Below the pieces are notes generated by a model. That model ran no database searches. It was not told where the DNA came from and saw only the letters and a list, made by a program, of their open reading frames with translations. A program made the translations under genes and the position numbers. A stretch of DNA of 64,000 nt from Goekera deserti. GTDB taxonomy: Bacteria; Actinomycetota; Actinomycetes; Mycobacteriales; Geodermatophilaceae. Shown in pieces: positions 21,143 to 32,096 of this stretch. Position 1 is the first letter of the stretch; every line of letters starts with the position of its first letter. The stretch lies in NCBI RefSeq assembly GCF_010685995.1, contig NZ_JAAGWK010000021.1, positions 62,001 through 126,000 of the forward strand. The letters run 5' to 3'.

Positions 21143-22270
21143 GTGACCGGCCTCCCCGGCGGCCTGCCGGTCGACGAGCTGGCCGATGCCCTCCAGCGGT
21201 GGACGCACCGGCCCGGCCTGGCTGTGGACGACGTGCGCTGTGCGCCGATCCGGCACCGCATCTCCGCGCCGACCACCCGGGCGCTCACCCGTGTGACCGT
21301 CGCCGCCTCCGACGCGGACGGCCCGGTGACGCTCTCCCTGGTGACCAAGGAGCTGCAGGCCGCCCGGTACGGCCTGCCGCCACAGATGCCCGACGAGGCG
21401 CGGGCCCACCTGGACACCGTCATCCCCTGGCGGCTGGAGGCCGAGGCCTACGCCTCCCCTGCGGCCGACCGGATGCCCGACGGGCTGCGGATGCCCGACC
21501 TCGTCGCGGTGCACGAGCAGCCCGGGGACCGGATGACGCTGTGGCTGGAGGACGTCGACCCGGTGGACACGCCCTGGACGGACGACGACCACGTCCGGGC
21601 CGCCGGGTTGCTGGGCCGGCTCGCCGCCCGCCGCGCCGGCGACGACCGGCTGCTCCCGAGGGGAGGCGAGTTCCTCACCACGTACCTGCGCGACAACCTG
21701 CTCGGCTGGTCGGGCCCACTGCTGTGCGGCGACGAGATCTGGCGGCACCCGCTGTTCACGCTGCCCTCCGTGGCCGCCCTGCGCCCCGACCTCACCGCGC
21801 TCGCCGGACGGGTCGACGCGCTGTTCGCCCGGCTCGACGGCCTGCCCGAGGTGCTGTGCCACGGCGACGCGACACCGATGAACCTGCTGCGCCCGCGCGC
21901 GCGGCCGGCCGACTTCGTCGCCGTCGACTGGGGCACGGCGACCCCGGCGCCGGTCGGCTTCGACGTCGTCCCGCTGGTGTTCGGGCGGGCCGAGGCGGGC
22001 ACGGGCGACGCCGACGAGTCCCCCCGGCTGCTCGAGCTCGCCGTCCCGGCCTACCACGAGGGCCTGGCGGCCGAGGGGATGGAGGTGCCGCTGGAGACCG
22101 TCCGGACAGCCGTCGTCCTCGCGGCCCTGCTGCGCTACCCGTCGAGCAGCCTGCCGCTGGAGGCGTTCCTGGGCGGCGCCCCGGTCACCGACGAGGCGGT
22201 CGCCCGCACCGTGCAGCGCGCGGCGTTCGTCCGGATGGTGCTCGACCTGGAACGCGACCTGCCCCGCTAG
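21143..22270 (+). CDS. APH-family phosphotransferase-like protein
   Basis: About 375 residues. The catalytic signature of aminoglycoside/choline kinase folds is present: LCHGDATPMNLL followed by VAVDWGTA. The N-terminal lobe is divergent. The start is uncertain; GTG 21143 was chosen, with GTG 21041 as an alternative, and neither has a clear ribosome site. It is divergent from the MarR operon across 153 bases, so the MarR operator could also control it. The substrate is unknown, and resistance cannot be inferred. Confidence 0.72.
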   Translation: MTGLPGGLPVDELADALQRWTHRPGLAVDDVRCAPIRHRISAPTTRALTRVTVAASDADGPVTLSLVTKELQAARYGLPPQMPDEARAHLDTVIPWRLEAEAYASPAADRMPDGLRMPDLVAVHEQPGDRMTLWLEDVDPVDTPWTDDDHVRAAGLLGRLAARRAGDDRLLPRGGEFLTTYLRDNLLGWSGPLLCGDEIWRHPLFTLPSVAALRPDLTALAGRVDALFARLDGLPEVLCHGDATPMNLLRPRARPADFVAVDWGTATPAPVGFDVVPLVFGRAEAGTGDADESPRLLELAVPAYHEGLAAEGMEVPLETVRTAVVLAALLRYPSSSLPLEAFLGGAPVTDEAVARTVQRAAFVRMVLDLERDLPR

Positions 22271-22318
22271 TGGAATCCCACGGGCGCAGGCTCAGCGCCG
22301 GAGGACTCCACCAGCGCG

Positions 22319-23092
22319 TCAGCGACCGCCGACGGAGACCTCGAACTCGACCTGGCTGACGTCGGGCCGCAGCCGGGAGAAGCTGTGCACCAGCGGCTGG
22401 CCCTCCCGGTCGCGCACCGTGGTGCGCACCACCAGCAACGGCGAGCCGGTGACGACGGCCAGCAGGTCGGCCTCGTCGATGGCCGCGGTGCCGACGTCGA
22501 CGAAGATCCGCGCGTGGGCGAGGTCGGCCTCGTACTCCCGGCGCAGGAACTCGTACAGCGACCCGTGGCTGAAGTCCTCGTGGGCCGCCTTGGGGAAGCG
22601 GTCGGCGGGCAGGAAGCTGCGGGAGACGTGGTTCGGCGCGCCGTCGATGCTGCGCAGCCGGACGACCTCGACCACCTCGTCGGCCACGTCCAGCCCCAGC
22701 TCGGTGGCGATGGCCGGCGCCGCCGGGACGATGTGCTGGGCGAGCACCGAGGTGCCGACCTGGGCGCCCTGCTCGGTCATGACCGAGTGGAAGCCGGCGA
22801 TCCGGTGCACGAAGCTCTCGCGGTACTCGTGCCGGATGCCCGGGCGGGTGACGAACGTGCCCCGGCCCTGCTCGCGCACCAGGTGGCCGTCGGCGACCAG
22901 GCCGTCGACGGCCCGGCGCAGGGTGATCCGGCTGACGCCGTACTCGTCGCACAGCACCGGCTCGGGGGGCAGCAGGGTGTGCTCGGGCAGCGCGGAGACG
23001 CGACGCCGCAGGTGTTCGCGGACCGCGAGGTACTTCGGGCCCGACTCCGGACTGGCCACGCCGACGAAGGTACTGCACCAGTAGACGTCCAT
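22319..23092 (-). CDS. GntR/HutC-family transcriptional regulator
   Basis: 257 residues. The N-terminal winged helix (KYLAVREHLRRRV, LPPEPVLCDEYGVSRITLRRAVDGLVADGHLVREQGRGTFV) is followed by a C-terminal UTRA effector domain. Start is ATG 23092, with a possible internal GTG at 23059; no ribosome site is seen before either. The 10-base palindrome CGTCATGACG directly upstream may be an operator. The VOC gene lies 27 bases upstream on the same strand. Confidence 0.88.
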   Translation of the reverse strand: MDVYWCSTFVGVASPESGPKYLAVREHLRRRVSALPEHTLLPPEPVLCDEYGVSRITLRRAVDGLVADGHLVREQGRGTFVTRPGIRHEYRESFVHRIAGFHSVMTEQGAQVGTSVLAQHIVPAAPAIATELGLDVADEVVEVVRLRSIDGAPNHVSRSFLPADRFPKAAHEDFSHGSLYEFLRREYEADLAHARIFVDVGTAAIDEADLLAVVTGSPLLVVRTTVRDREGQPLVHSFSRLRPDVSQVEFEVSVGGR

Positions 23093-23094
23093 AC

Positions 23095-23104
23095 GTCATG
23101 ACGA
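23095..23104. promoter_or_regulatory. 10-base palindrome at the GntR gene start
   Basis: CGTCATGACG lies three bases upstream of the GntR-family ATG, inside the short gap after the VOC gene. Its position would allow binding to block translation initiation or transcription. A role as autoregulatory operator is inference. Confidence 0.35.
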
Positions 23105-23119
23105 ATACCCGCCAGGATG

Positions 23120-23563
23120 TCAGTCCCAGCGGAAGAAGGTGAGCAGGTTGCCGTCCAGGTCCAGCGCCGAGAACTCCCGGCTGCCGAACGTCTGGTCCAC
23201 TGGAGCGCCGGTGTCGGTGGGGTGCAGGACGCCGGCCGCGGACAGCTCGGCGTGCAGCCCGTCGACGTCGACCACGCGGATGCGACAGCTGGCCGTGCCG
23301 GCCAGGAAGCTCTCCGCACCGCTGCGCACCGGGCTGCCGGCGGTGTCCCGGTGCGTCCAGCGCTCGTCCGCCGCCTCCCACAGGTGCAGCTCGGCGGCGT
23401 CGCGCCGGACGACGGCGAACCCGGCGTCCTCGTGAACCGCGGGGAAGCCCAGCCGGGAGGCGTAAAAGCGGACGGCCGCCTCGACGTCGCGGACCGGGAG
23501 CGCCGGGACGGTCTCGGACAGGCCCGCCTCGACCCGTCGGTCCGCCCCGCCCTCGTCCGCCAC
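23120..23563 (-). CDS. VOC-superfamily (glyoxalase/bleomycin-resistance-like) protein
   Basis: 147 residues. The VOC pattern is clear: VPALPVRDVEAAVRFYASRLGFPAVHED, then CRIRVVDVDGLHAEL and FSALDLDGNLLTFF. Such proteins are metal-dependent dioxygenases, lyases or drug-binding proteins. Start is GTG 23563. It lies 27 bases upstream of the GntR-family gene, and the two are probably one transcript. Confidence 0.82.
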   Translation of the reverse strand: MADEGGADRRVEAGLSETVPALPVRDVEAAVRFYASRLGFPAVHEDAGFAVVRRDAAELHLWEAADERWTHRDTAGSPVRSGAESFLAGTASCRIRVVDVDGLHAELSAAGVLHPTDTGAPVDQTFGSREFSALDLDGNLLTFFRWD

Positions 23564-23600
23564 GGCAGCAGCGTAGGACCGGGACCCGGCCGCGGCCAGA

Positions 23601-23633
23601 CTGTGCACCCACTGTGCACAGCGATCTGCACAG
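23601..23633. promoter_or_regulatory. Three CTGTGCAC-like motifs upstream of the VOC gene
   Basis: CTGTGCAC at 23601, the palindrome CTGTGCACAG at 23612-23621, and CTGCACAG at 23626-23633 lie 38-70 bases upstream of the VOC start. The clustering suggests a regulator-binding region, possibly for the neighbouring GntR protein. Confidence 0.35.
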
Positions 23634-23711
23634 CCTGGGGACAACGCGGTGGACGGCGGGACATCCCAGCTCAGCGCGCCGGGCGGGGTGTGGACACCCT
23701 GGGGACGACGC

Positions 23712-24983
23712 TCAGCGGGCCGGCCCCTCCCCGGGCTGCCAGAGCTCCACCACGGTGACCTCCGGGCGCGCCCCGACGCGCACCGGTGGCCCGAAGTAGC
23801 CGGCCCCCGAGGTGACGTAGAGCTGCGTGTCCCCGTGCGTGCTGTACCCCTCCACGGACGGCTGGTCGAGCCGGACGGCGTAGTCGAACGGCCACATCTG
23901 GCCGCCGTGCGTGTGCCCGGACAGCTGCAGGCCGACCCCGGCCCGCTGCGCCTGCTCGACCTGCACCGGCTGGTGGGCCAGCAGCACCACCGGCACGGCG
24001 TCGTCCCGGCCGTCGAGGGCGGCGTCGAGGTCCGCGCCGTGACCGGGGAGCCCCGAGGAGGCGGCGGTGCGATCGTCGATGCCGGCCAGGTCGACGCTGG
24101 CGCTGCCCCGCCGGATCGGCACCCGCTCGTTGCGCAGCACGTCCACCCCCAGCGTGGGCAGGTGCCGCAGCCAGGCGGTGGTGTCCACGAAGTACTCGTG
24201 GTTGCCGGTGACGAAGTAGACACCCTGCTCGCTGACCAGGTCGGCCAGCGGGGCGACGTCCTCGCGCAGGTCGGCCAGCTCGCCGTCGACCAGGTCGCCG
24301 ACGATCGCCACCACGTCCGGCCGCTGGGCGTTGACCGTCTCCACCACCCGCTCGAACCGCCGCCCGCCGTAGGTGGCCGACAGGTGACCGTCGGAGAAGG
24401 TGACGATCCGCAGGCCGTTCAGCTCCGGGGCCAGGCCCTGCAGCCGGATCGGCACCCGCCGCACGACCGGAGCCGTGTTGGCCCAGTACGCCCCGGCGCC
24501 CACCGTGCCCACGGCCACCACCCCGGCGCCGACCGCCAGGCTGCGGCCGAGGAACAGCCGCCGGGACACGTCGGCCGGCTCGGACTCGGCCGGGGCTGCC
24601 GGTGCCGGACCGGCCGGCACCGCGGCCGGGTCGGACGCCGGGGACGCCGCCGTGGTGGCCGCAGTGGACGCCGCAGTGGTGGCCGCAGTGGTGGCCGCCG
24701 GGTCGGGACCACGGCGGCGCTGGGCCAGCCGGACCGCCAGCCGGACCGGCTCCAGCACGAGCAGGGTCAGGAACAGGTAGAACATCAGCCCGAGCCACAC
24801 GAAGCCCACCCAGCTCAGCGGGGTGGCCACCGAGAGCGGGATGCGGCCGCGGGTCACCAGTGCGGCGGTGGCGAGCAGCGCCAACCCGACCAGCCCCCAC
24901 GTCAGCCGCCGGCGCAGCCGCCCGGGGCGGGTGGTGGCCCGCACCAGCCGGGACCACAGGTAGGCGTGCAGCAGCACGACCAC
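23712..24983 (-). CDS. Membrane-anchored metallophosphoesterase
   Basis: 423 residues as listed. Two or three N-terminal hydrophobic segments, an Ala/Thr/Pro linker, a second hydrophobic segment after SRRLFLGRS (Tat-like), then a calcineurin-type phosphoesterase domain with FSDGHL, GDLVDG, GNHEY and GHTHGGQ metal motifs. The active site should lie outside the membrane. The listed start is the first standard codon, GTG 24983, but it cuts the first helix. The frame continues in hydrophobic sequence to a CTG at 25028 preceded by GAGGAG at 25035-25040, which may be the true start. Confidence 0.86.
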   Translation of the reverse strand: MVVLLHAYLWSRLVRATTRPGRLRRRLTWGLVGLALLATAALVTRGRIPLSVATPLSWVGFVWLGLMFYLFLTLLVLEPVRLAVRLAQRRRGPDPAATTAATTAASTAATTAASPASDPAAVPAGPAPAAPAESEPADVSRRLFLGRSLAVGAGVVAVGTVGAGAYWANTAPVVRRVPIRLQGLAPELNGLRIVTFSDGHLSATYGGRRFERVVETVNAQRPDVVAIVGDLVDGELADLREDVAPLADLVSEQGVYFVTGNHEYFVDTTAWLRHLPTLGVDVLRNERVPIRRGSASVDLAGIDDRTAASSGLPGHGADLDAALDGRDDAVPVVLLAHQPVQVEQAQRAGVGLQLSGHTHGGQMWPFDYAVRLDQPSVEGYSTHGDTQLYVTSGAGYFGPPVRVGARPEVTVVELWQPGEGPAR

Positions 24984-25028
24984 CAGGACGACGAACAGTG
25001 CGAAGCCGAGCAGACCGATGACGGCCAG

Positions 25029-25612
25029 GGGGTGCTCCTCGGGGAGGGTCGGCGGGGGACGGGGTCAGCGGCCGGTCAGGGAGGCCGGTGTCCGTCGATC
25101 ACGCCCGCCACTGTGCCGCATGCCGGGGCCGGTCCGCTCCAGGTCCGACGCCCCTCGGGAGGCCACCCCCGGGACGCCGCCCGCGAAGGCAGACAGTGGC
25201 CCGACACCGGCCGCTCCCGGCCCAGAACCGGCCGACAGCGGGCCAATGCTCCGGTCCGACCCCTTTGGGCCACGCGCGGCGGCCAGGTCGCCCGCCAGGC
25301 AGCAGGCAATGGCCCGACACGGGCCGTTCGGGGCCCAGGACCGGCCGACAGCGGGCCAATGCTCCGGTCCGGGCCCCCGCGTGGGCCGCGCGCACGCCGC
25401 CCGGCGCGTCCAGGTCGCCCACCAGACGGCCCGCCAGGCGGGCGGGCGGGCGGCAGGGCGGCAGGCACTGGCCCGACACCGGCCGTTCCCGACCCAGGAC
25501 CGGCCAGCAGAGGGCCGATGCTCTGATCCGGCCCCGCGTGGGTCACGCGCGCAGGTGGGTGCCGAGCGGGCTGGCGGCCACCTGGTGATCTCCGACCCGG
25601 TCGCCGACGTCC
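25029..25612. other. 584-base gene-free region with three copies of a GC-rich repeat
   Basis: No gene is supported here. Frames open on both strands are low-complexity readings of repeats. Three imperfect copies of a roughly 72-base unit lie at 25188-25263, 25305-25376 and 25464-25535, and the spacers between them also share sequence. Confidence 0.6.
25188..25535. repeat. Repeat cluster 1 (three copies)
   Basis: Each unit reads approximately GGCARTGGCCCGACACCGGCC, then GTTCCC, CCCAGGACCGGCC, GACAGCGGGCC and AATGCTCCGG. Inverted CCGGCC/GGCCGG segments could form stems. The same family, with better stems, is found at 27189-27470, on the other side of the soxR module. Confidence 0.75.
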
Positions 25613-26695
25613 TCAGTTGATCAGCGCGGCCGCCCGCAGCGCCGCACCGGCCGCGGTGGGCACCCCGCGCGACGCCGACTCCAGCGCGACCTCGGCGAAC
25701 TTCAGCGCGTGCTCGTCCCCCGACCGCACCGCTGCGGCCACCACCTCCTCCGCCGAGCCGCCTCGGGCGGGGTCGGGCAGCGCGGCGGCGGGCCGGTAGA
25801 GCGCCGCGATCGCCGCGGCGGCCGTCCAGGCGGCCTGGTGGGTGAGCGGCCACAGCTCAGGGGGCAGCGCCGGGAGCACCAGGGCGGCGGCGCGCGGCGC
25901 GGTGGCCGCGTGCACCAGCATCACCGGGGAGCCGGGGGCCCAGCGGCCGTACCGGACCACCGCCGCGTCCACCAGGCGGGTCAGCGCCGCGGGCACCTCG
26001 GCCACCGGGACGTCCGCGGCCGCCCGCAGCGCCGGCCGCCAGCCGGGGTGCAGGCCGAGCCGGTCCAGCCGGGCGCGGAGGTCCCCGGCGGCACCCAGCA
26101 CCGGGACGCCGTCCAGGGCCTCGCCCGGCGGGCGGCCGCCGACCGGGGGCACGGCGCCGACCGGGGGCGCGATGGCGCTCCTGGGCACGATGCCGACCGG
26201 GGGCACGGCGCCGCTCAGGGGCGCGGAGCCGGGCATCGGCTGCCAGCGGGCGGCCCAGTACCCCAGCGCGGCAGCGAGCTCGGCCCGGCGGGGTGCGGTC
26301 TCCACCTCGCGCAGCGCCCGCACCGCGTGCCCGGTGCGGATCAGGCAGTGCGTGGCCGAGGCGATCGAGCCGGGCACCAGCCGGGGCCACCACCGCGCCA
26401 GCACGTCCGGCCACGGCGCACCGGCCAGCTCGCGGTCGAAGAACGCCAGCCAGTCACCCAGCCGGCCGGCGTCGCCGAGCGCCTCGTGCCAGTCGTCGCC
26501 GGTCACCGGCCACCGCTCCCCGGGCGCCTGCTCCAGCCGGCCGACGTACCCGTCGACCCAGCGGTGCACGTCGGCCGACGGGTCGATCCGCAGCAGCGCG
26601 TCGGCGGCCATCGGCCCGTGGTTGGACAGCCAGCCGTCGAACTCCGGGCCGGTCGACCGCAACCGCTCGTACACCTCGTCCAGTGCTCCGTCCAC
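25613..26695 (-). CDS. Questin-oxidase-like (DUF4243) protein
   Basis: 360 residues. It begins DEVYERLRSTGPEFDGWLSNHGPMAADALL and continues with HRWVDGYVGRLE, which I recognise as the questin oxidase-like family. Fungal members open an anthraquinone ring; bacterial roles are unknown. Residues 180-205 are a Pro/Gly/Val repeat insert. Start is GTG 26695; a GTG at 26722 lies inside the SoxR operator and would be upstream of the predicted transcript start. The promoter places this gene under the divergent SoxR. Family assignment is by eye. Confidence 0.72.
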   Translation of the reverse strand: MDGALDEVYERLRSTGPEFDGWLSNHGPMAADALLRIDPSADVHRWVDGYVGRLEQAPGERWPVTGDDWHEALGDAGRLGDWLAFFDRELAGAPWPDVLARWWPRLVPGSIASATHCLIRTGHAVRALREVETAPRRAELAAALGYWAARWQPMPGSAPLSGAVPPVGIVPRSAIAPPVGAVPPVGGRPPGEALDGVPVLGAAGDLRARLDRLGLHPGWRPALRAAADVPVAEVPAALTRLVDAAVVRYGRWAPGSPVMLVHAATAPRAAALVLPALPPELWPLTHQAAWTAAAAIAALYRPAAALPDPARGGSAEEVVAAAVRSGDEHALKFAEVALESASRGVPTAAGAALRAAALIN

Positions 26696-26709
26696 GGCGC
26701 CAGCCGACC

Positions 26710-26732
26710 ACCTGCAGTGCACTTCAGGTCAA
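26710..26732 (-). promoter_or_regulatory. SoxR-type operator/promoter for the questin-oxidase-like gene
   Basis: On the minus strand the sequence reads TTGACC as -35 (26732-26727) running directly into a 20-base dyad ACCTGAAGTGCACTGCAGGT with one mismatched pair. This matches the known SoxR architecture, in which a dyad fills an overlong 19-20 base spacer. A -10 would fall at about 26707-26702 and transcription would begin at about the GTG at 26695, giving a leaderless message. Confidence 0.72.
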
Positions 26733-26747
26733 GGGCACACTGCACGC

Positions 26748-27305
26748 GTGGAGCTCACCGTCGGCGAGGTCGCCCGCCGGTCCGGCGTCTCGGTGGCCGC
26801 GCTGCGCTTCTACGAGCAGCAGGGCCTGATCAGCAGCCGCCGCACCCCGGGCAACCAGCGCCGCTACGAGCGCGGCGTGCTGCGCCGGCTCGCCTTCGTC
26901 GCCGCGGCCCAGCGGGTCGGGCTCACCCTGGCGCAGGTGCGGGCCGCCCTGGACACGCTGCCCGCCGGGCGCACACCGACCCGGGCCGACTGGACGGCGC
27001 TGTCCACCGGCTGGCGGGCCCTGGTCGACGCCCGCATCGCGGAGCTGCAGCGCCTGCGCGAGGACCTCGACGGCTGCATCGGCTGCGGCTGCCTCAGCCT
27101 GCCGGTGTGCGCGTTGTACAACCCCGGCGACCAGGCCGGCGCCGAGGCCCCGGGCTCGCGCTGGCTGCGGCGCGCCCTGGACCGCCCCGGTCAGCCCGCC
27201 GACTCGGGCAGTGACCCGCTCGCAGCCGTTCCCCAGCCAGGAACGGCCGACCGAGGGCCGATGCCCGCTGGCCCCGCCCGGGCAGCCCACCGACTCGGGC
27301 AGTGA
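26748..27305 (+). CDS. soxR: SoxR, redox-sensing MerR-family activator
   Basis: 185 residues. N-terminal MerR helix-turn-helix (VGEVARRSGVSVAALRFYEQQGLI, RTPGNQRRYERGVLRRLAFV), dimerisation helix, then CIGCGCLSLPVC, the exact CX2CXCX5C [2Fe-2S] ligand set of SoxR. The cluster is oxidised by redox-active small molecules. Start is GTG 26748. The last 38 or so residues, after WLRRALDRPG, are low-complexity and are encoded by the first unit of repeat cluster 2, so the protein is longer than the usual 150 residues. Confidence 0.93.
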   Translation: MELTVGEVARRSGVSVAALRFYEQQGLISSRRTPGNQRRYERGVLRRLAFVAAAQRVGLTLAQVRAALDTLPAGRTPTRADWTALSTGWRALVDARIAELQRLREDLDGCIGCGCLSLPVCALYNPGDQAGAEAPGSRWLRRALDRPGQPADSGSDPLAAVPQPGTADRGPMPAGPARAAHRLGQ

Positions 27306-27470
27306 CCTGACCCCGGCCGTCCCACACCCGGGAACAGCCGACTGAGGGCCCAGGCCCCGGGGCCCGCCGGCCGCATCCGGGCAGCCCGCCAGTCCAGGCA
27401 ATGACCCGACCGCGGCCGTTCTCCAGCCAGGAACGGCCGACTGAGGGCCGATGCCCGCCGGGGGGCCAGC
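27189..27470. repeat. Repeat cluster 2 (three copies, hairpin-forming)
   Basis: Units start at about 27205, 27296 and 27395. The first has GCCGTTCC (27225-27232) and GGAACGGC (27240-27247); the third has GGCCGTTC (27414-27421) and GAACGGCC (27431-27438). The middle unit has decayed stems. Shared flanks read GGGCAGTGACCCG before and GAGGGCCGATGCCC after. The first copy lies inside the soxR reading frame, the others may terminate its transcript. Confidence 0.8.
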
Positions 27471-27486
27471 CGGCTCCCTAGGGGGC

Positions 27487-27509
27487 GGCCGGCTCCCCGG
27501 GGGCCGGCC
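27487..27509 (-). terminator. Hairpin after the CYTH-CHAD gene
   Basis: GGCCGGC (27487-27493) and GCCGGCC (27503-27509) form a 7-base stem about 30 bases beyond the CYTH-CHAD stop codon. Placement suits termination of that gene, although it could equally serve soxR from the other side. Confidence 0.4.
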
Positions 27510-27538
27510 AGCCCTCGGGGAGCACGGGCGCAGGTGCG

Positions 27539-29332
27539 TCAGGGGCGCAGGTGGGTGGCCGCGCGCAGGGCGGGACGCAGGGTCGGCCACAGCGCCCAGA
27601 AGTCGGCCTCGGCCGCGGCGGAGCGGGCCTCCTCCAGGGCGTGCAGCCGGCCGTGGGTGAACGCGCTCTCCCCCGCCGCCGACGCCTCCCCGCCCAGTCG
27701 CAGGCACTGCTCGCGGGTCACCACGGTGTCCTGCCGGTCGCCCAGCACCTCCTGCAGCTGCTTCATCACCGACACCAGGCCGCCCACCGGGGAGCCGAGC
27801 GTGCCGGCGGCCACCTCGGCGGTGTAACGCACCCGCTTGGCCGCCTTGCGCACCTCGTGCAGCGCCAGGTCGCGGGCCTCGTCGTCGGCGGCGTCCTCGG
27901 CGGCGCGGACGAACCGGCGCAGCCGCTTCACCGTCTTCGCCACCACCGCGGCCAGCGCCGGCCCGGCGGGGCCGGCGGCCTCCTCGGTCAGCGGCGGGTC
28001 TGCGACCAGCGCGAACAGCCGGTCCAGCAGCTCCAGGTGCCGGGTCTGCCGCAGCACCGCGACGCCCGCCCCGCCGGCCGAGGTGTCCTCGGCGGCCTGC
28101 TCGGCGGCCCGCAGCTGCTCGACCACCGGGCCGACGACGAGCTCGGCCGGCTGGTCGGCCACGACCTGCAGCAGGTGGGCCAGCGACACCTCGGAGTCCC
28201 GGGCTCCGGACAGCTCCTGACCCAGCCAGCGCAGCTCCTCGCGCACCGGGTCGGTGTGCTCGCGCTGCAGCACCGGGCGGTAGGCGGCCAGGATGCTGCG
28301 CAGCCGGCGGGCGGCCACCCGCACCTGGTGCACGCCGTCGGGCTGACCGGTGCGCACCATGAGGTCGGCTCGCTGGAGCGCGGCCAGCTGCTGCTGCACC
28401 GCGGCGACCACGACGGCGCCGGCGTCCTGCGGCTGGTCGGGCTCGTCGTCGCCCGTCGACCCGGCCTTCCCCTTGCCCTTCGCCTTGCCCTTCGCCTTCC
28501 CCTTGTCCTTCGCCTTGCCCTGTCCCTTGTCCTTCGTCTTCGCCTTGCCCTTCGCCTTGCCGCGGGGGGACGCGCCCTCGGCCTCGGACGTCGACCCCGC
28601 ACCGTCCGCCTCGCGGGCCGTCTCGTCGTCGTCGGTGGGGGCGGGGGCCGCCTCCATGTCCACCGGGGCCGTGTCGGCGTCGTCGTCGGAGGGCACCGCG
28701 GGCCGGTCCAGGCCGGCCAACCGGTCGGCGAGCACCCGCTCGACCTTCGCCCGCGAACGCGAGACCCGGGCCCCGGAGACGACCAGCTCGGCGGCCACCG
28801 CGGCCAGCACCTCCTCGTCGCCGTCGACCAGCTCGACCTCCAGCTCCCGCCAGGTGGTGACCACCGCGGCCTCGCCCGGGCCGGTGGACACGGCCGTGCC
28901 GGTCACGTGGTCGTCGGCCACCTCGGCCAGCACCCGACCGTCGGCGGCCAGCAGCGGGGTGACCAGCCGGCGGGTCGACAGGGTCGCGACGACGGCGGTC
29001 GGGGCCCGCCGGACGATGCCCAGCACCGGGTCCAGCACCGCCTTCGGAACCGTCTTGACCGCGCGCCCGAGCGGCGACTGGAGCTCGCGGCGGGCGCCGG
29101 CCTCGGCCGGCAGCTTCACGTGCCAGCCGGCGTCGGGGCCGCCGGTGCGGCGCCGCAGGGTCACCTTGGCCCGCAGCAACCGCAGGTCGGCGGTGTCGTG
29201 GTAGCTGGCCTGCAACTGGTGCACCACCGGCTCACCGACCGAGTGGACGCCGTCGACGCCGGACAGGTCGGGGAGGACGTAGCCCTCCTCGACGTCGAAC
29301 TTGCGCTCGATCTCGATGTGCTCGCTGGCCAC
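27539..29332 (-). CDS. CYTH-CHAD domain protein (triphosphate tunnel metalloenzyme plus polyphosphate-binding domain)
   Basis: 597 residues. The N-terminal CYTH domain begins EIERKFDVEE, the family's ExExK motif, and covers about 1-200. A Lys/Gly-rich linker (repeated GKAKGK) follows near residues 255-305. The CHAD domain (about 320-590) has VHQVRVAARRLRSIL and LHEVRKAAKRVRY, the conserved His/Arg helices that bind polyphosphate. Predicted to act on inorganic tri- or polyphosphate. Start is GTG 29332 with GAGGAG eight bases upstream. It is divergent from cheA. Confidence 0.92.
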   Translation of the reverse strand: MASEHIEIERKFDVEEGYVLPDLSGVDGVHSVGEPVVHQLQASYHDTADLRLLRAKVTLRRRTGGPDAGWHVKLPAEAGARRELQSPLGRAVKTVPKAVLDPVLGIVRRAPTAVVATLSTRRLVTPLLAADGRVLAEVADDHVTGTAVSTGPGEAAVVTTWRELEVELVDGDEEVLAAVAAELVVSGARVSRSRAKVERVLADRLAGLDRPAVPSDDDADTAPVDMEAAPAPTDDDETAREADGAGSTSEAEGASPRGKAKGKAKTKDKGQGKAKDKGKAKGKAKGKGKAGSTGDDEPDQPQDAGAVVVAAVQQQLAALQRADLMVRTGQPDGVHQVRVAARRLRSILAAYRPVLQREHTDPVREELRWLGQELSGARDSEVSLAHLLQVVADQPAELVVGPVVEQLRAAEQAAEDTSAGGAGVAVLRQTRHLELLDRLFALVADPPLTEEAAGPAGPALAAVVAKTVKRLRRFVRAAEDAADDEARDLALHEVRKAAKRVRYTAEVAAGTLGSPVGGLVSVMKQLQEVLGDRQDTVVTREQCLRLGGEASAAGESAFTHGRLHALEEARSAAAEADFWALWPTLRPALRAATHLRP

Positions 29333-29729
29333 GGGTGGGGCTCCTCTGTTCCGGTCACGGTGCTGGACTGCCGATGACGACGTGGCGTGCACGGTAGGCG
29401 GCCGCGGTGGACCGTGGCTGCCCGACCGGCCTCCCGGTGCAGGTCGGGATCTCACCGCAGGCCCCCGACAGGCCCGCCGCGACGCTGCTGCGGAACGGCC
29501 GGCGCACCCGCGACATCACCATGTCGACAGGTGCGGAACGGTCGGCGCGCGCCATTCCCAGGCAATGTCGACAAATGGCGGACAATGGCGCCGCGTGCAT
29601 TCGGCAACATCGGAGAATGCTTGAGGAATTCCTGCCTGTCCGGCTTCACCCGGGCGGGGGACCGCCGATAGACCCTGTGCTGTCGCAGCGGGACCGGCCC
29701 GCGGCGCATCGAGGGGAAGCAGACGAAAA
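29333..29729. other. 397-base divergent region between the CYTH-CHAD gene and cheA
   Basis: No gene is supported. Two TGTCGACA palindromes lie at 29522-29529 and 29566-29573, 44 bases apart. The stretch 29560-29650 is less GC-rich than its surroundings. A sigma-28-like -10 element lies at 29664-29671. Confidence 0.55.
29645..29671 (+). promoter_or_regulatory. Candidate sigma-28 (FliA/WhiG-type) promoter of cheA-cheW
   Basis: GCCGATAG at 29664-29671 matches seven of eight bases of the known GCCGATAA -10 element of flagellar sigma factors. Fifteen bases upstream is TTCA, a partial match to TAAA. It lies 59 bases before the cheA start. The -35 is weak, so confidence rests on the -10 and on a second site before cheB. 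Confidence 0.45.
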
Positions 29730-32096
29730 GTGGACGGTCTGGACGACATCGTCGGCGAGTTCCTGGTGGAGAGCCACGAGAACCTCGACCAGCTGGACCG
29801 TGACCTGGTCGCGCTGGAGCAGGAGCCCAACTCCCGGGAGCGGATGTCGAGCATCTTCCGCACGATCCACACGATCAAGGGCACCAGCGGCTTCCTCGCC
29901 TTCAACCGGCTGGAGGAGGTCACCCACGTCGGGGAGAACATGCTCTCCAAGATGCGCGACGGCGTGCTGGAGCTGACCCCGTTCCGCACCGACGTGCTGC
30001 TGCGCATGGTCGACTGCGTGCGCTCGCTGCTCGCCGCGATCGAGGCCGACGGGACCGAGGGCTCGGTCGACGTGTCCGAGGTCGTCGCCGCCATCAGTGC
30101 CGCGCTGGAGGACCGTGCGCCGGCCGCCTCCTCCGTCGCGACGCTGGCGCCCGCCGCCCCGGTCGCGCCCGCCGCCCCCGCCGTCGAGGAACTGCACGAC
30201 GAGGACAACGACGACGAGCACGACGAGGACCACGACGACCACGAGGACGACGCCGCGCACGCGCCGGGCCCGGTCGCCGCCGCACCCGCCGCCCCGCCCG
30301 CCGTCCCCACCGAGCCCGCCGCCCAGCCGGCCGCTGCCGCTGCCGCGCCCAAGCTGGAGCCGGAGCCCGGCACCGGGCCGCAGAAGGGCCGCGGCATCGC
30401 CGACAGCACCATCCGCGTGGACGTCGACCTGCTCGACGCGCTCATGCAGCTGGTCGGGGAGCTGGTGCTGACCCGCAACCAGATCGTCCAGTACGCCTCC
30501 CAGGAGACCGGCACCGACCTGGTGCGCGCCTCGCAGCGGCTGAACCTGATCGCCAGCGAGCTGCAGGAGGGCGTCATGCGCACCCGCATGCAGCCCATCG
30601 ACCACATCTGGTCCAAGCTGCCCCGCGTCGTCCGGGACCTGGGCCAGCAGGTCGGCAAGTCGGTGCGGCTGGAGATGGAGGGCAAGGAGACCGAGCTCGA
30701 CAAGACCCTGCTCGAGGCCGTCAAGGACCCGCTGACCCACCTGGTGCGCAACTCCGTCGACCACGGCATCGAGAAGGCCGAGGTCCGCCTGGCCGCCGGC
30801 AAGCCCTCCGACGGCGTGCTGAGCCTGCGCGCCCGGCACGAGAGCGGCCAGGTCGTCGTGGAGATCTCCGACGACGGCGCCGGCATGGACCCCGCCCGGA
30901 TCGGCGCCAAGGCCGTCGAGCGCGGCCTGATCACCGCCGAGCAGATGGCCCGCATGTCCACCCAGGACATCCTGCAGCTGACCTTCCTGCCCGGCTTCTC
31001 CACCGCCGCCGCGGTCACCAACGTCTCCGGCCGCGGTGTCGGCATGGACGTCGTGAAGACCAACATCGAGGCCATCGGCGGCACCATCGAGGTCGAGTCG
31101 GTCGTCGGCAAGGGCACCAGCACCCGGCTGCGCATCCCGCTGACCCTGGCGATCATGCCGGCGCTGACCATCGAGTGCGCCGGCGAGCGCTACGCCATCC
31201 CGCAGGTCAGCCTGCAGGAGCTGGTGGCCCTGGACGCCGAGAAGGCCGCCGCGGCCGTCGAGGAGGTCGGCGGGGCGCCGGTCTACCGGCTGCGCGGCGA
31301 GCTGCTGCCGCTGGTGCAGCTGGCCGACGTCTTCGGGCTCACCTCCGACCGGCACGACGGCCACCTGGTCATCGCCGTGCTCCGCTCGGAGGGACGCCGC
31401 TTCGGCCTCGTGGTCGACCGGGTCATCAACACCGAGGAGATCGTGGTCAAGGCCGTCGGCGGCCAGCTCAAGGCGGTCGGCCTGTACTCCGGCGCCACGA
31501 TCCTCGGCGACGGCGCGGTGGCCCTGATCCTCGACGTCCAGGCACTGTCCCGCCGGGCGATGCGGCCCGAGGCCGCCGAGCGGCAGGAAGCCCGCGCCGC
31601 CGCGGCAGCCGCCAGCCTCAACGCCAGCGTCGCCGAGCGTCAGCGGATGCTGCTGGCCGCGATCGGCGGGGGCCGCCAGGTGGCGATCCCGCTGGACACG
31701 GTCACCCGGCTCGAGCAGGTCAAGTCCGCGACGGTGGAGCGGATCGGCTCCCGCGAGGTCGTGCAGTACCGCGGCGCGATCCTCCCGATCGTCCGGCTCG
31801 ACCGGCACCTGGGTGCCTACGGCGAGAGCGAGCGCGAGGTGCTCGAGGTCGTCGTCTACGCCGACCACGGGCGCAGCGTGGCGATCGTGGTCGAGGAGAT
31901 CCTCGACATCGTGGACGGCGAGGCCGCCGTGCACAGCGACATCGACGACATGGGCCTGCTCGGCGCGGCGGTGTTCGGCGACAAGGTGACCGAGCTGCTG
32001 GACGTGCGCGCGGCCATCCTCGCCGCCGACCCGATGTTCTTCACCGCCATCCACGACGCCTCCCTGGGCGTCCCGTCCGGACTCCTGGAGGTCTGA
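29730..32096 (+). CDS. cheA: CheA, chemotaxis histidine kinase with two C-terminal CheW domains
   Basis: 788 residues. The Hpt (P1) domain carries the phosphorylated His47 in IFRTIHTIKGTSGFL. A long acidic, His-rich and Pro/Ala linker (about 120-215) stands where a CheY-binding P2 domain would be. Then come the P3 dimerisation helices (VDLLDALMQLVGELVLTRNQ), the P4 ATPase domain with LVRNSVDHG and SDDGAGMD, and two CheW-like P5 domains (about 475-620 and 635-788). It transfers phosphate to CheY and CheB. Start is GTG 29730 with GAGGGGA upstream. cheW follows after one base. Confidence 0.96.
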   Translation: MDGLDDIVGEFLVESHENLDQLDRDLVALEQEPNSRERMSSIFRTIHTIKGTSGFLAFNRLEEVTHVGENMLSKMRDGVLELTPFRTDVLLRMVDCVRSLLAAIEADGTEGSVDVSEVVAAISAALEDRAPAASSVATLAPAAPVAPAAPAVEELHDEDNDDEHDEDHDDHEDDAAHAPGPVAAAPAAPPAVPTEPAAQPAAAAAAPKLEPEPGTGPQKGRGIADSTIRVDVDLLDALMQLVGELVLTRNQIVQYASQETGTDLVRASQRLNLIASELQEGVMRTRMQPIDHIWSKLPRVVRDLGQQVGKSVRLEMEGKETELDKTLLEAVKDPLTHLVRNSVDHGIEKAEVRLAAGKPSDGVLSLRARHESGQVVVEISDDGAGMDPARIGAKAVERGLITAEQMARMSTQDILQLTFLPGFSTAAAVTNVSGRGVGMDVVKTNIEAIGGTIEVESVVGKGTSTRLRIPLTLAIMPALTIECAGERYAIPQVSLQELVALDAEKAAAAVEEVGGAPVYRLRGELLPLVQLADVFGLTSDRHDGHLVIAVLRSEGRRFGLVVDRVINTEEIVVKAVGGQLKAVGLYSGATILGDGAVALILDVQALSRRAMRPEAAERQEARAAAAAASLNASVAERQRMLLAAIGGGRQVAIPLDTVTRLEQVKSATVERIGSREVVQYRGAILPIVRLDRHLGAYGESEREVLEVVVYADHGRSVAIVVEEILDIVDGEAAVHSDIDDMGLLGAAVFGDKVTELLDVRAAILAADPMFFTAIHDASLGVPSGLLEV

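Follow-up and report, generated by a model that had tools for sequence, protein, structure and literature searches.

The soxR gene of the window, the 64-kb stretch of DNA that was analysed, very probably controls its divergent neighbour, a gene of the PF14027 family (DUF4243, questin-oxidase-like), as judged from the sequence between the two genes and from its counterparts in relatives. The predicted fold of the neighbour's product is that of fungal ring-cleaving dioxygenases, and we consider it probable that the unit as a whole amounts to SoxR control of a ring-cleaving dioxygenase of the non-heme-iron type. This reading is compatible with two of the rival explanations discussed below, those that concern the substrate and the purpose of the enzyme. 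In many relatives the gene is preceded by the same promoter, which suggests that the sensing and destroying of quinone-like compounds by such a unit is widespread.

The sequence-only reading had placed soxR and a DUF4243/questin-oxidase-like gene divergently across 52 bases. This was confirmed, the gap being positions 26696-26747. The genes and the elements between them are as follows.

26748..27305, plus strand: soxR; GTG start at 26748, stop at 27305; 185 aa.
27075..27110, plus strand: SoxR cysteine motif CIGCGCLSLPVC, residues 110-121, read from the sequence.
25613..26695, minus strand: PF14027 (DUF4243, questin-oxidase-like) gene; GTG start at 26695; 360 aa.
26727..26732, minus strand: -35 element TTGACC, read from the sequence and kept in relatives.
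26710..26729, no strand assigned: predicted SoxR operator dyad ACCTGAAGTGCACTGCAGGT (minus-strand reading), from pattern searches and relatives.
26702..26707, minus strand: predicted -10 element TCGGCT, 19 bp past the -35; all 41 boxed relatives with such geometry have T as its last base.
26693..26695, minus strand: GTG start codon at the predicted (leaderless) transcript start; the distance from TTG to start is 37.

The product of soxR scored 208.7 bits against the equivalog model TIGR01950 (cut-off 116.9), which it matched over residues 2-141. It contains the pattern CX2CXCX5C, also found in other SoxR loci, which we take to be the holder of the [2Fe-2S] cluster. The last ~45 residues lie beyond the match, where the frame runs into a local repeat. 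This repeat, 114-122 bases long, occurs in three copies behind the PF14027 gene and in three copies at or behind the 3' end of soxR (25160-25553 and 27158-27461); the soxR frame enters the first of the latter, and its tail resembles the repeats downstream. At E 0.001, a 71-base piece of the repeat has matches in all three copies on the soxR side, in one on the opposite side (78%) and at one further place in the genome, C1:64830 (77%).

SoxR activates transcription by realigning an overlong 19-bp spacer upon oxidation. On the minus strand, the gap reads TTGACC, a 19-bp spacer with most of the dyad inside it, TCGGCT, 6 nt and the GTG at 26695. The earlier suggestion of a SoxR-type promoter, in which TTGACC runs into a dyad and the spacer is overlong, is supported by this spacing and by the conservation of the predicted layout in relatives. 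Within the 64-kb window, the SoxR box with 2 mismatches gave 4 matches (2 places, each on both strands) versus 0.26 expected, and the box with TTG in front and 3 mismatches was unique (1 match versus 0.00 expected). A loosened pattern, fitted to the deviations of two known sites (the window operator and the site of an ABC transporter), was found in the 4.84-Mb genome at 2 perfect places, at 1 with one mismatch and in 5 matches with two, as compared with 0 for the reversed pattern. The plain consensus with 3 mismatches gave 4 matches in the whole genome versus 10 for the reversed control, and this search is uninformative on its own because the reversed pattern produced the larger number. The weight of the case for the predicted operator lies mainly on its conservation in relatives. 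The second perfect box of the genome (G000:C22:92859, L044) precedes the ABC transporter gene (PF00664 and PF00005) in the same layout as in the window (-35, 19, -10, 6 nt, ATG).

A first search for relatives found a match in 11 of 59 genomes, the window's own included; no relatives of the enzyme were found among viral contigs. The closest homologues, all in Geodermatophilaceae (G005, G009, G015, G023 and G030), have the same promoter, with the -10 ending 6 or 7 bases before the ATG, and in G009 SoxR is divergent from the boxed PF14027 gene. The box was absent before more distant homologues (G025, two in G038, G042, G054, G055 and the second copy of G005). Species genomes were then scanned with the alignment A1, and the best 80 of 505 relatives were kept, so that the shares given here apply to the closest relatives. 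SoxR is divergent from and adjacent to the PF14027 gene in 11 of these best 80 (three Modestobacter, a Geodermatophilaceae MAG, two Nocardioides, a Nocardioidaceae MAG and four other uncultured actinobacteria), and the pairing noticed in the window thus recurs in its relatives. A SoxR-type box (score ≤3, within 150 bases upstream) was present in 46 of the 80 relatives versus 11 of 3859 windows drawn at random from their loci; as the 80 are mutually related, this count is not independent evidence for each locus. The box of one SoxR-adjacent relative (L052) has 6 mismatches. That a MerR-type gene has come to lie beside an ordinary gene by mere chance is hardly credible: the TTG-led box has an expectation of 0.00 in the window, and chance is contradicted by the conservation of the pairing (11 of 80), of the box (46 of 80) and of the start geometry, which is fixed.

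This geometry also bears on the proposal that the gene is transcribed without a leader. Counted from the first T of the -35, 41 of the 46 boxed loci have a start codon in frame at a distance of 37 bases (31 loci) or 38 bases (10 loci), and the final T of the -10 is common to all 41; neither feature was demanded by the box search. All 11 SoxR-adjacent relatives have their start at exactly 37 bases, as does the window; in L049 the 37-base spacing appears only with a start codon other than the nearest one. By consensus the -10 is poor (T at position 1 in 19 of 41, A at position 2 in 28 of 41), and a purine motif resembling a ribosome site is present in the short spacer between -10 and start in 3 of 41. 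With 6-7 bases between the end of the -10 and the start codon, transcription is expected to begin at this codon or directly beside it. The leaderless claim gains support from the fixed -35-to-start distance: the PF14027 promoter is conserved and probably leaderless, and for the gene in the window we hold leaderless transcription to be highly likely. In the five other boxed loci, from Kutzneria, Allokutzneria (two), Solihabitans and Saccharothrix, the distance from the -35 to the start is 60-69 bases, and a leaderless status was rejected for them.

We considered the possibility that the box serves a different regulator of the MerR family, the SoxR neighbour being incidental. MerR operators resemble one another, the Allokutzneria boxes deviate in sequence as well as in spacing to the start, and a Kutzneria locus (L053) has a MerR-type ORF just behind the enzyme, on the opposite strand. 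Yet the dyad lies in a gap shared with soxR, the divergent SoxR is kept in 11 of the best 80 relatives, and the same promoter drives another gene, encoding a short-chain dehydrogenase (SDR), beside SoxR in seven of eight Geodermatophilaceae SoxR loci, which makes a different regulator very unlikely.

In the window's family, 11 further genomes bear SoxR, and the eight loci come from 8 of them. In seven of the loci the promoter, its spacing (37 or 38 bases) and the divergent SoxR are as in the window, whereas the driven gene is an SDR instead; the eighth (L043) has another gene. One of the seven SDRs was checked by Pfam, and the SDR starts were located with tblastn. Relative to the window, these divergent SoxR-SDR pairs with the same spacing (L036-L042, L024-L027) represent a swap of partners. 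Four genomes of one genus (G005, G015, G023 and G030) have the SDR as the partner of SoxR, with the layout TTGACA-19-CATTCT-6-ATG, and their PF14027 gene has a box of its own on a contig other than that of SoxR. No match to the SoxR-linked SDR was found at E 1e-30 in the window's genome, in the three Modestobacter relatives or in G031. As the SDR takes the place of the PF14027 gene in relatives and has no match in the window's genome, the SoxR-linked slot has changed hands.

In a tree of the enzyme with 86 rows, on which the box classes were set by hand, the SoxR-adjacent state needs 3 changes versus a mean of 11.5 after shuffling (quick method). The window groups with the three Modestobacter (support 98) inside a group of ten, all SoxR-adjacent or boxed (support 99). 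SoxR-adjacent enzymes fall in two separate clades, and the boxed homologues are spread over several families.

A strict box pattern, drawn from the PF14027 promoters themselves, was sought in 11 genomes and found at 26 sites, spread over 9 of them, versus 1 for the reversed pattern; it had no match in the Modestobacter genomes G059 and G061, whose boxes deviate from it. Seven of the 26 sites precede PF14027 genes, two of them in Nocardioides psychrotolerans. The genome of this species (L173, L182) contains two SoxR genes as well as two PF14027 genes, both of the latter behind a SoxR-type promoter. Eleven of the other 19 downstream genes were scanned, some of the ORFs picked by script behind strict boxes looking like wrong frames: they comprised three zinc-type quinone/alcohol oxidoreductases, one FMN reductase, one NmrA-like protein, three MFS proteins, an ornithine-cyclodeaminase-like protein, a member of the SgcJ/EcaC family and a deazaflavin nitroreductase (below its cut-off). 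This set resembles the SoxR targets of S. coelicolor. In G079, a SoxR-like gene (123.6 bits) lies 63 bases from a box, divergent from the reductase gene of L169. The reductase genes behind SoxR-type boxes in Micromonospora are NmrA-like, by Pfam in L168 and by eye in L169.

The PF14027 model matched the protein with 30.1 bits (cut-off 27) over residues 63-125 only, and in a six-frame search with 24.1 bits, under the cut-off; the family call was weak until structures were compared. An AlphaFold2 model built on A1 (pLDDT 84.1, pTM 0.86) matched BTG13 (7y3w, 7y3x, 7y3y), PaD (8z4q, 8z4r) and AflY (8yxs) with Z 30.2-31.2 over 326-334 residues, the next solved chain being at Z 7.9; chains under Z 8 were taken as common helical arrangements. 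The whole-chain fold of the model is thus the one common to the fungal questin oxidase and ring-cleaving dioxygenases (GedK, MdpL, AgnL3, AflY, BTG13), with Z 31.0 to 7y3w and 30.2 to 8yxs; for BTG13 the match has Z 31.0-31.2 over 326-330 residues with an rmsd of 3.0. In Foldseek, PaD and AflY came first (E 3e-5 to 8e-5), followed by BTG13 (E about 0.01). Questin oxidase, hydroquinone dioxygenase and non-heme iron dioxygenase are the names given in the titles of the matched entries. Unlike the fungal dioxygenases, which have about 440 residues, the enzyme of the window has 360, is bacterial, is predicted to be SoxR-regulated and has no biosynthetic cluster visible nearby; its identity to the fold matches is 12-16%.

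At the sequence level, phmmer with the single protein found in the PDB only two designed helical proteins (E 0.034 and 0.18), and the profile of A1 reached AflY at E 0.08. With the profile A2, to which the divergent homologue L012 was added, PaD was matched at E 5.5e-7 and AflY at 1.1e-5, A2 being tilted by containing L012 twice (part P0001 and a nearly whole copy). In the alignment, N25-H26, H116, H262-x-x-T265, H329 and K332 are conserved in 85-86 of the 86 rows. PaD, with Z 30.5 and 15-16% identity, aligns directly at the histidines of TH, LxHxxT and HxxK and, via L012, at the NH motif; alignment with AflY covers some of the motif positions. The iron ligands of BTG13 are four histidines and a carboxylated lysine. 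On the strength of the model and of these conserved residues, the enzyme is likely a dioxygenase of the non-heme-iron type. BTG13 is called nonheme iron-dependent in the title of a reference, and the available part of PMC9890505 calls GedK cofactor-free, at odds with the titles that name iron. A proline/valine-rich insert, which arises from overlapping 18-base steps at 26120-26240 in the gene, faces mostly gaps in the remaining rows of A1 and is modelled with low confidence.

The sequence-only reading had proposed a quinone-ring oxygenase. The fold match to ring-cleaving dioxygenases favours this proposal, which we refine to a putative non-heme-iron-type dioxygenase acting on the reduced (hydro)quinone. 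By analogy with these relatives, we lean towards a quinone-type substrate, which cannot be read off directly because the identity is 12-16% and the Foldseek E of BTG13 about 0.01. If SoxR drives the gene, the substrate might also be another reduced aromatic compound, a quinol of the cell itself (e.g. menaquinol) or no quinone at all. Such a substrate would be in keeping with the low identity to the solved relatives and with the DUF4243 domain of MinC, which, in the available part of PMC8724604, belongs to the biosynthesis of minimycin, an oxazine C-nucleoside and not a quinone. In contrast, the sole strong fold matches carry the titles cited above, and the scanned genes behind like promoters are mostly quinone/flavin reductases and pumps; we therefore find such a substrate unlikely, if still worth bearing in mind.

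The available part of PMC4146615 lists six targets of S. coelicolor SoxR: an ABC transporter, a monooxygenase, an epimerase, a flavoprotein reductase, an oxidoreductase and a quinone oxidoreductase. As in the window, the box of this regulon (ecaA-ecaD, SCO2478, SCO0320ext) lies between -35 and -10 (PMC4146615, in the same part), and its transporter has a parallel in the boxed ABC transporter of the window's genome, next to quinone and flavin oxidoreductases as targets. Two differences are apparent from this source, as far as its available text goes: PF14027 is absent from the six listed targets, and soxR of S. coelicolor is not autoregulated, whereas soxR of the window shares its operator gap with the target (PMC4146615). 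The S. coelicolor protein responds to actinorhodin, pyocyanin, plumbagin, PMS and benzoquinone, not to paraquat, according to the available part of PMC5288332, and by analogy the SoxR of the window should respond to redox-active metabolites. Whereas the S. coelicolor regulon deals with redox-active antibiotics by export, or by reduction and tailoring, the SoxR regulon proposed here would break up the ring itself. A search of the open-licence literature by title and start of the abstract found no published link between SoxR and an enzyme of the PF14027/questin-oxidase type.

The same comparison raises the question of purpose. SoxR could drive the gene while the enzyme builds or tailors a secondary metabolite or pigment of the cell's own, rather than degrading foreign quinones. 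SoxR of S. coelicolor serves endogenous antibiotic production, its targets resembling tailoring enzymes (PMC4146615, available part), and the fungal relatives of the enzyme act within biosynthesis (PMC9890505, likewise in part). However, visual inspection of the ORFs listed for 22000-31000 showed no polyketide genes, and the spread of boxed homologues over several families also argues against a role of this kind, which we judge to be improbable, slightly more so than a different substrate.

Under SoxR control of a ring-cleaving dioxygenase, the events may be pictured as follows. A redox-active compound would oxidise the iron-sulphur cluster of SoxR, and the oxidised protein would realign the 19-bp spacer between TTGACC and TCGGCT and turn on the divergent PF14027 gene, whose transcript would start at or next to the start codon. 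Using O2, the enzyme would then cleave the ring in a hydroquinone or anthrahydroquinone and so remove the trigger of SoxR. Efflux through the second boxed target, the ABC transporter, would help. If this is true, the bacterial PF14027/DUF4243 family acquires a testable function and may comprise a class of enzymes of quinone degradation and quinone-antibiotic resistance; a conserved, leaderless SoxR-type promoter would also become available for study.

Ring opening in fungi begins with an NADPH reductase, after which the dioxygenase acts on the hydroquinone; nsrR is one such reductase gene and encodes an SDR (both from the available part of PMC9890505). Reductase and dioxygenase co-occur across fungal pathways, as stated in the available part of PMC9474520. 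We tentatively put forward, as a wider reading that we regard as rather doubtful, that a SoxR-governed catabolic defence of actinomycetes repeats this two-enzyme logic: a reductase would produce the hydroquinone, the PF14027 dioxygenase, expressed from a leaderless SoxR promoter, would cut the ring, and the SoxR-linked slot would be swapped between the two. The NAD(P)H reductase would then be the SDR in Geodermatophilaceae and an NmrA-like or zinc-type quinone reductase in Micromonosporaceae. Among the boxed sites identified in the window's genome, none belongs to a reductase able to make a hydroquinone; for this strain the full two-enzyme reading is weaker on that account, and general quinone reductases could supply the step.

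A score above 3 was obtained for 34 of the 80 relatives. One of these (L081) is still boxed at the right place, leaving 33 box-less loci, to which belong the set's 21 Streptomyces and 10 Streptosporangiaceae without exception, plus 2 others; SoxR control is therefore not family-wide. SoxR was present in 8 of 9 tested Streptomyces and Streptosporangiaceae genomes of this group. Mere presence of SoxR says little, because 33 of the 35 genomes tested have it, whether or not the enzyme is boxed; in L059, one of the two without, SoxR is cut by the contig end. In the window's family, SoxR scored above the cut-off in 17 of 35 genomes and is present in all 6 with a boxed enzyme, 4 of which belong to one genus. 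No SoxR was found in the flanks of the PF14027 gene in any of the 29 Micromonosporaceae of the set, and no MerR-type ORF adjoins the enzyme in the 18 tested, one lying 2.5 kb off in L085. Many Micromonosporaceae boxes deviate at 4-7 places, and beside the main SoxR genes examined in this family (L140-L145) no box of this type turned up. As the regulator genes are not next to the enzyme and many boxes are deviant, we infer that SoxR would act in trans there; support comes from the types of gene found behind the boxes and from the SoxR-like gene near a box in G079.

The box-less loci have features of their own. An upstream motif like CTAGGTCC was present in 16 of the 33, versus 98 of 1650 random windows and 2 of 47 boxed loci, with a pattern drawn up after looking at the box-less loci. 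It lies 75-77 bases upstream of the PF14027 gene in L054, L057, L063, L064, L067, L077, L082, L084 and L089, and a TAGCGTC-like -10 is found near the start in 20 of the 33. The Streptomyces and Streptosporangiaceae homologues are perhaps under another regulator, and their transcription is possibly again leaderless. The SDR of G009 (L161), which is without a SoxR box, shows a similar CCTAGGACC.
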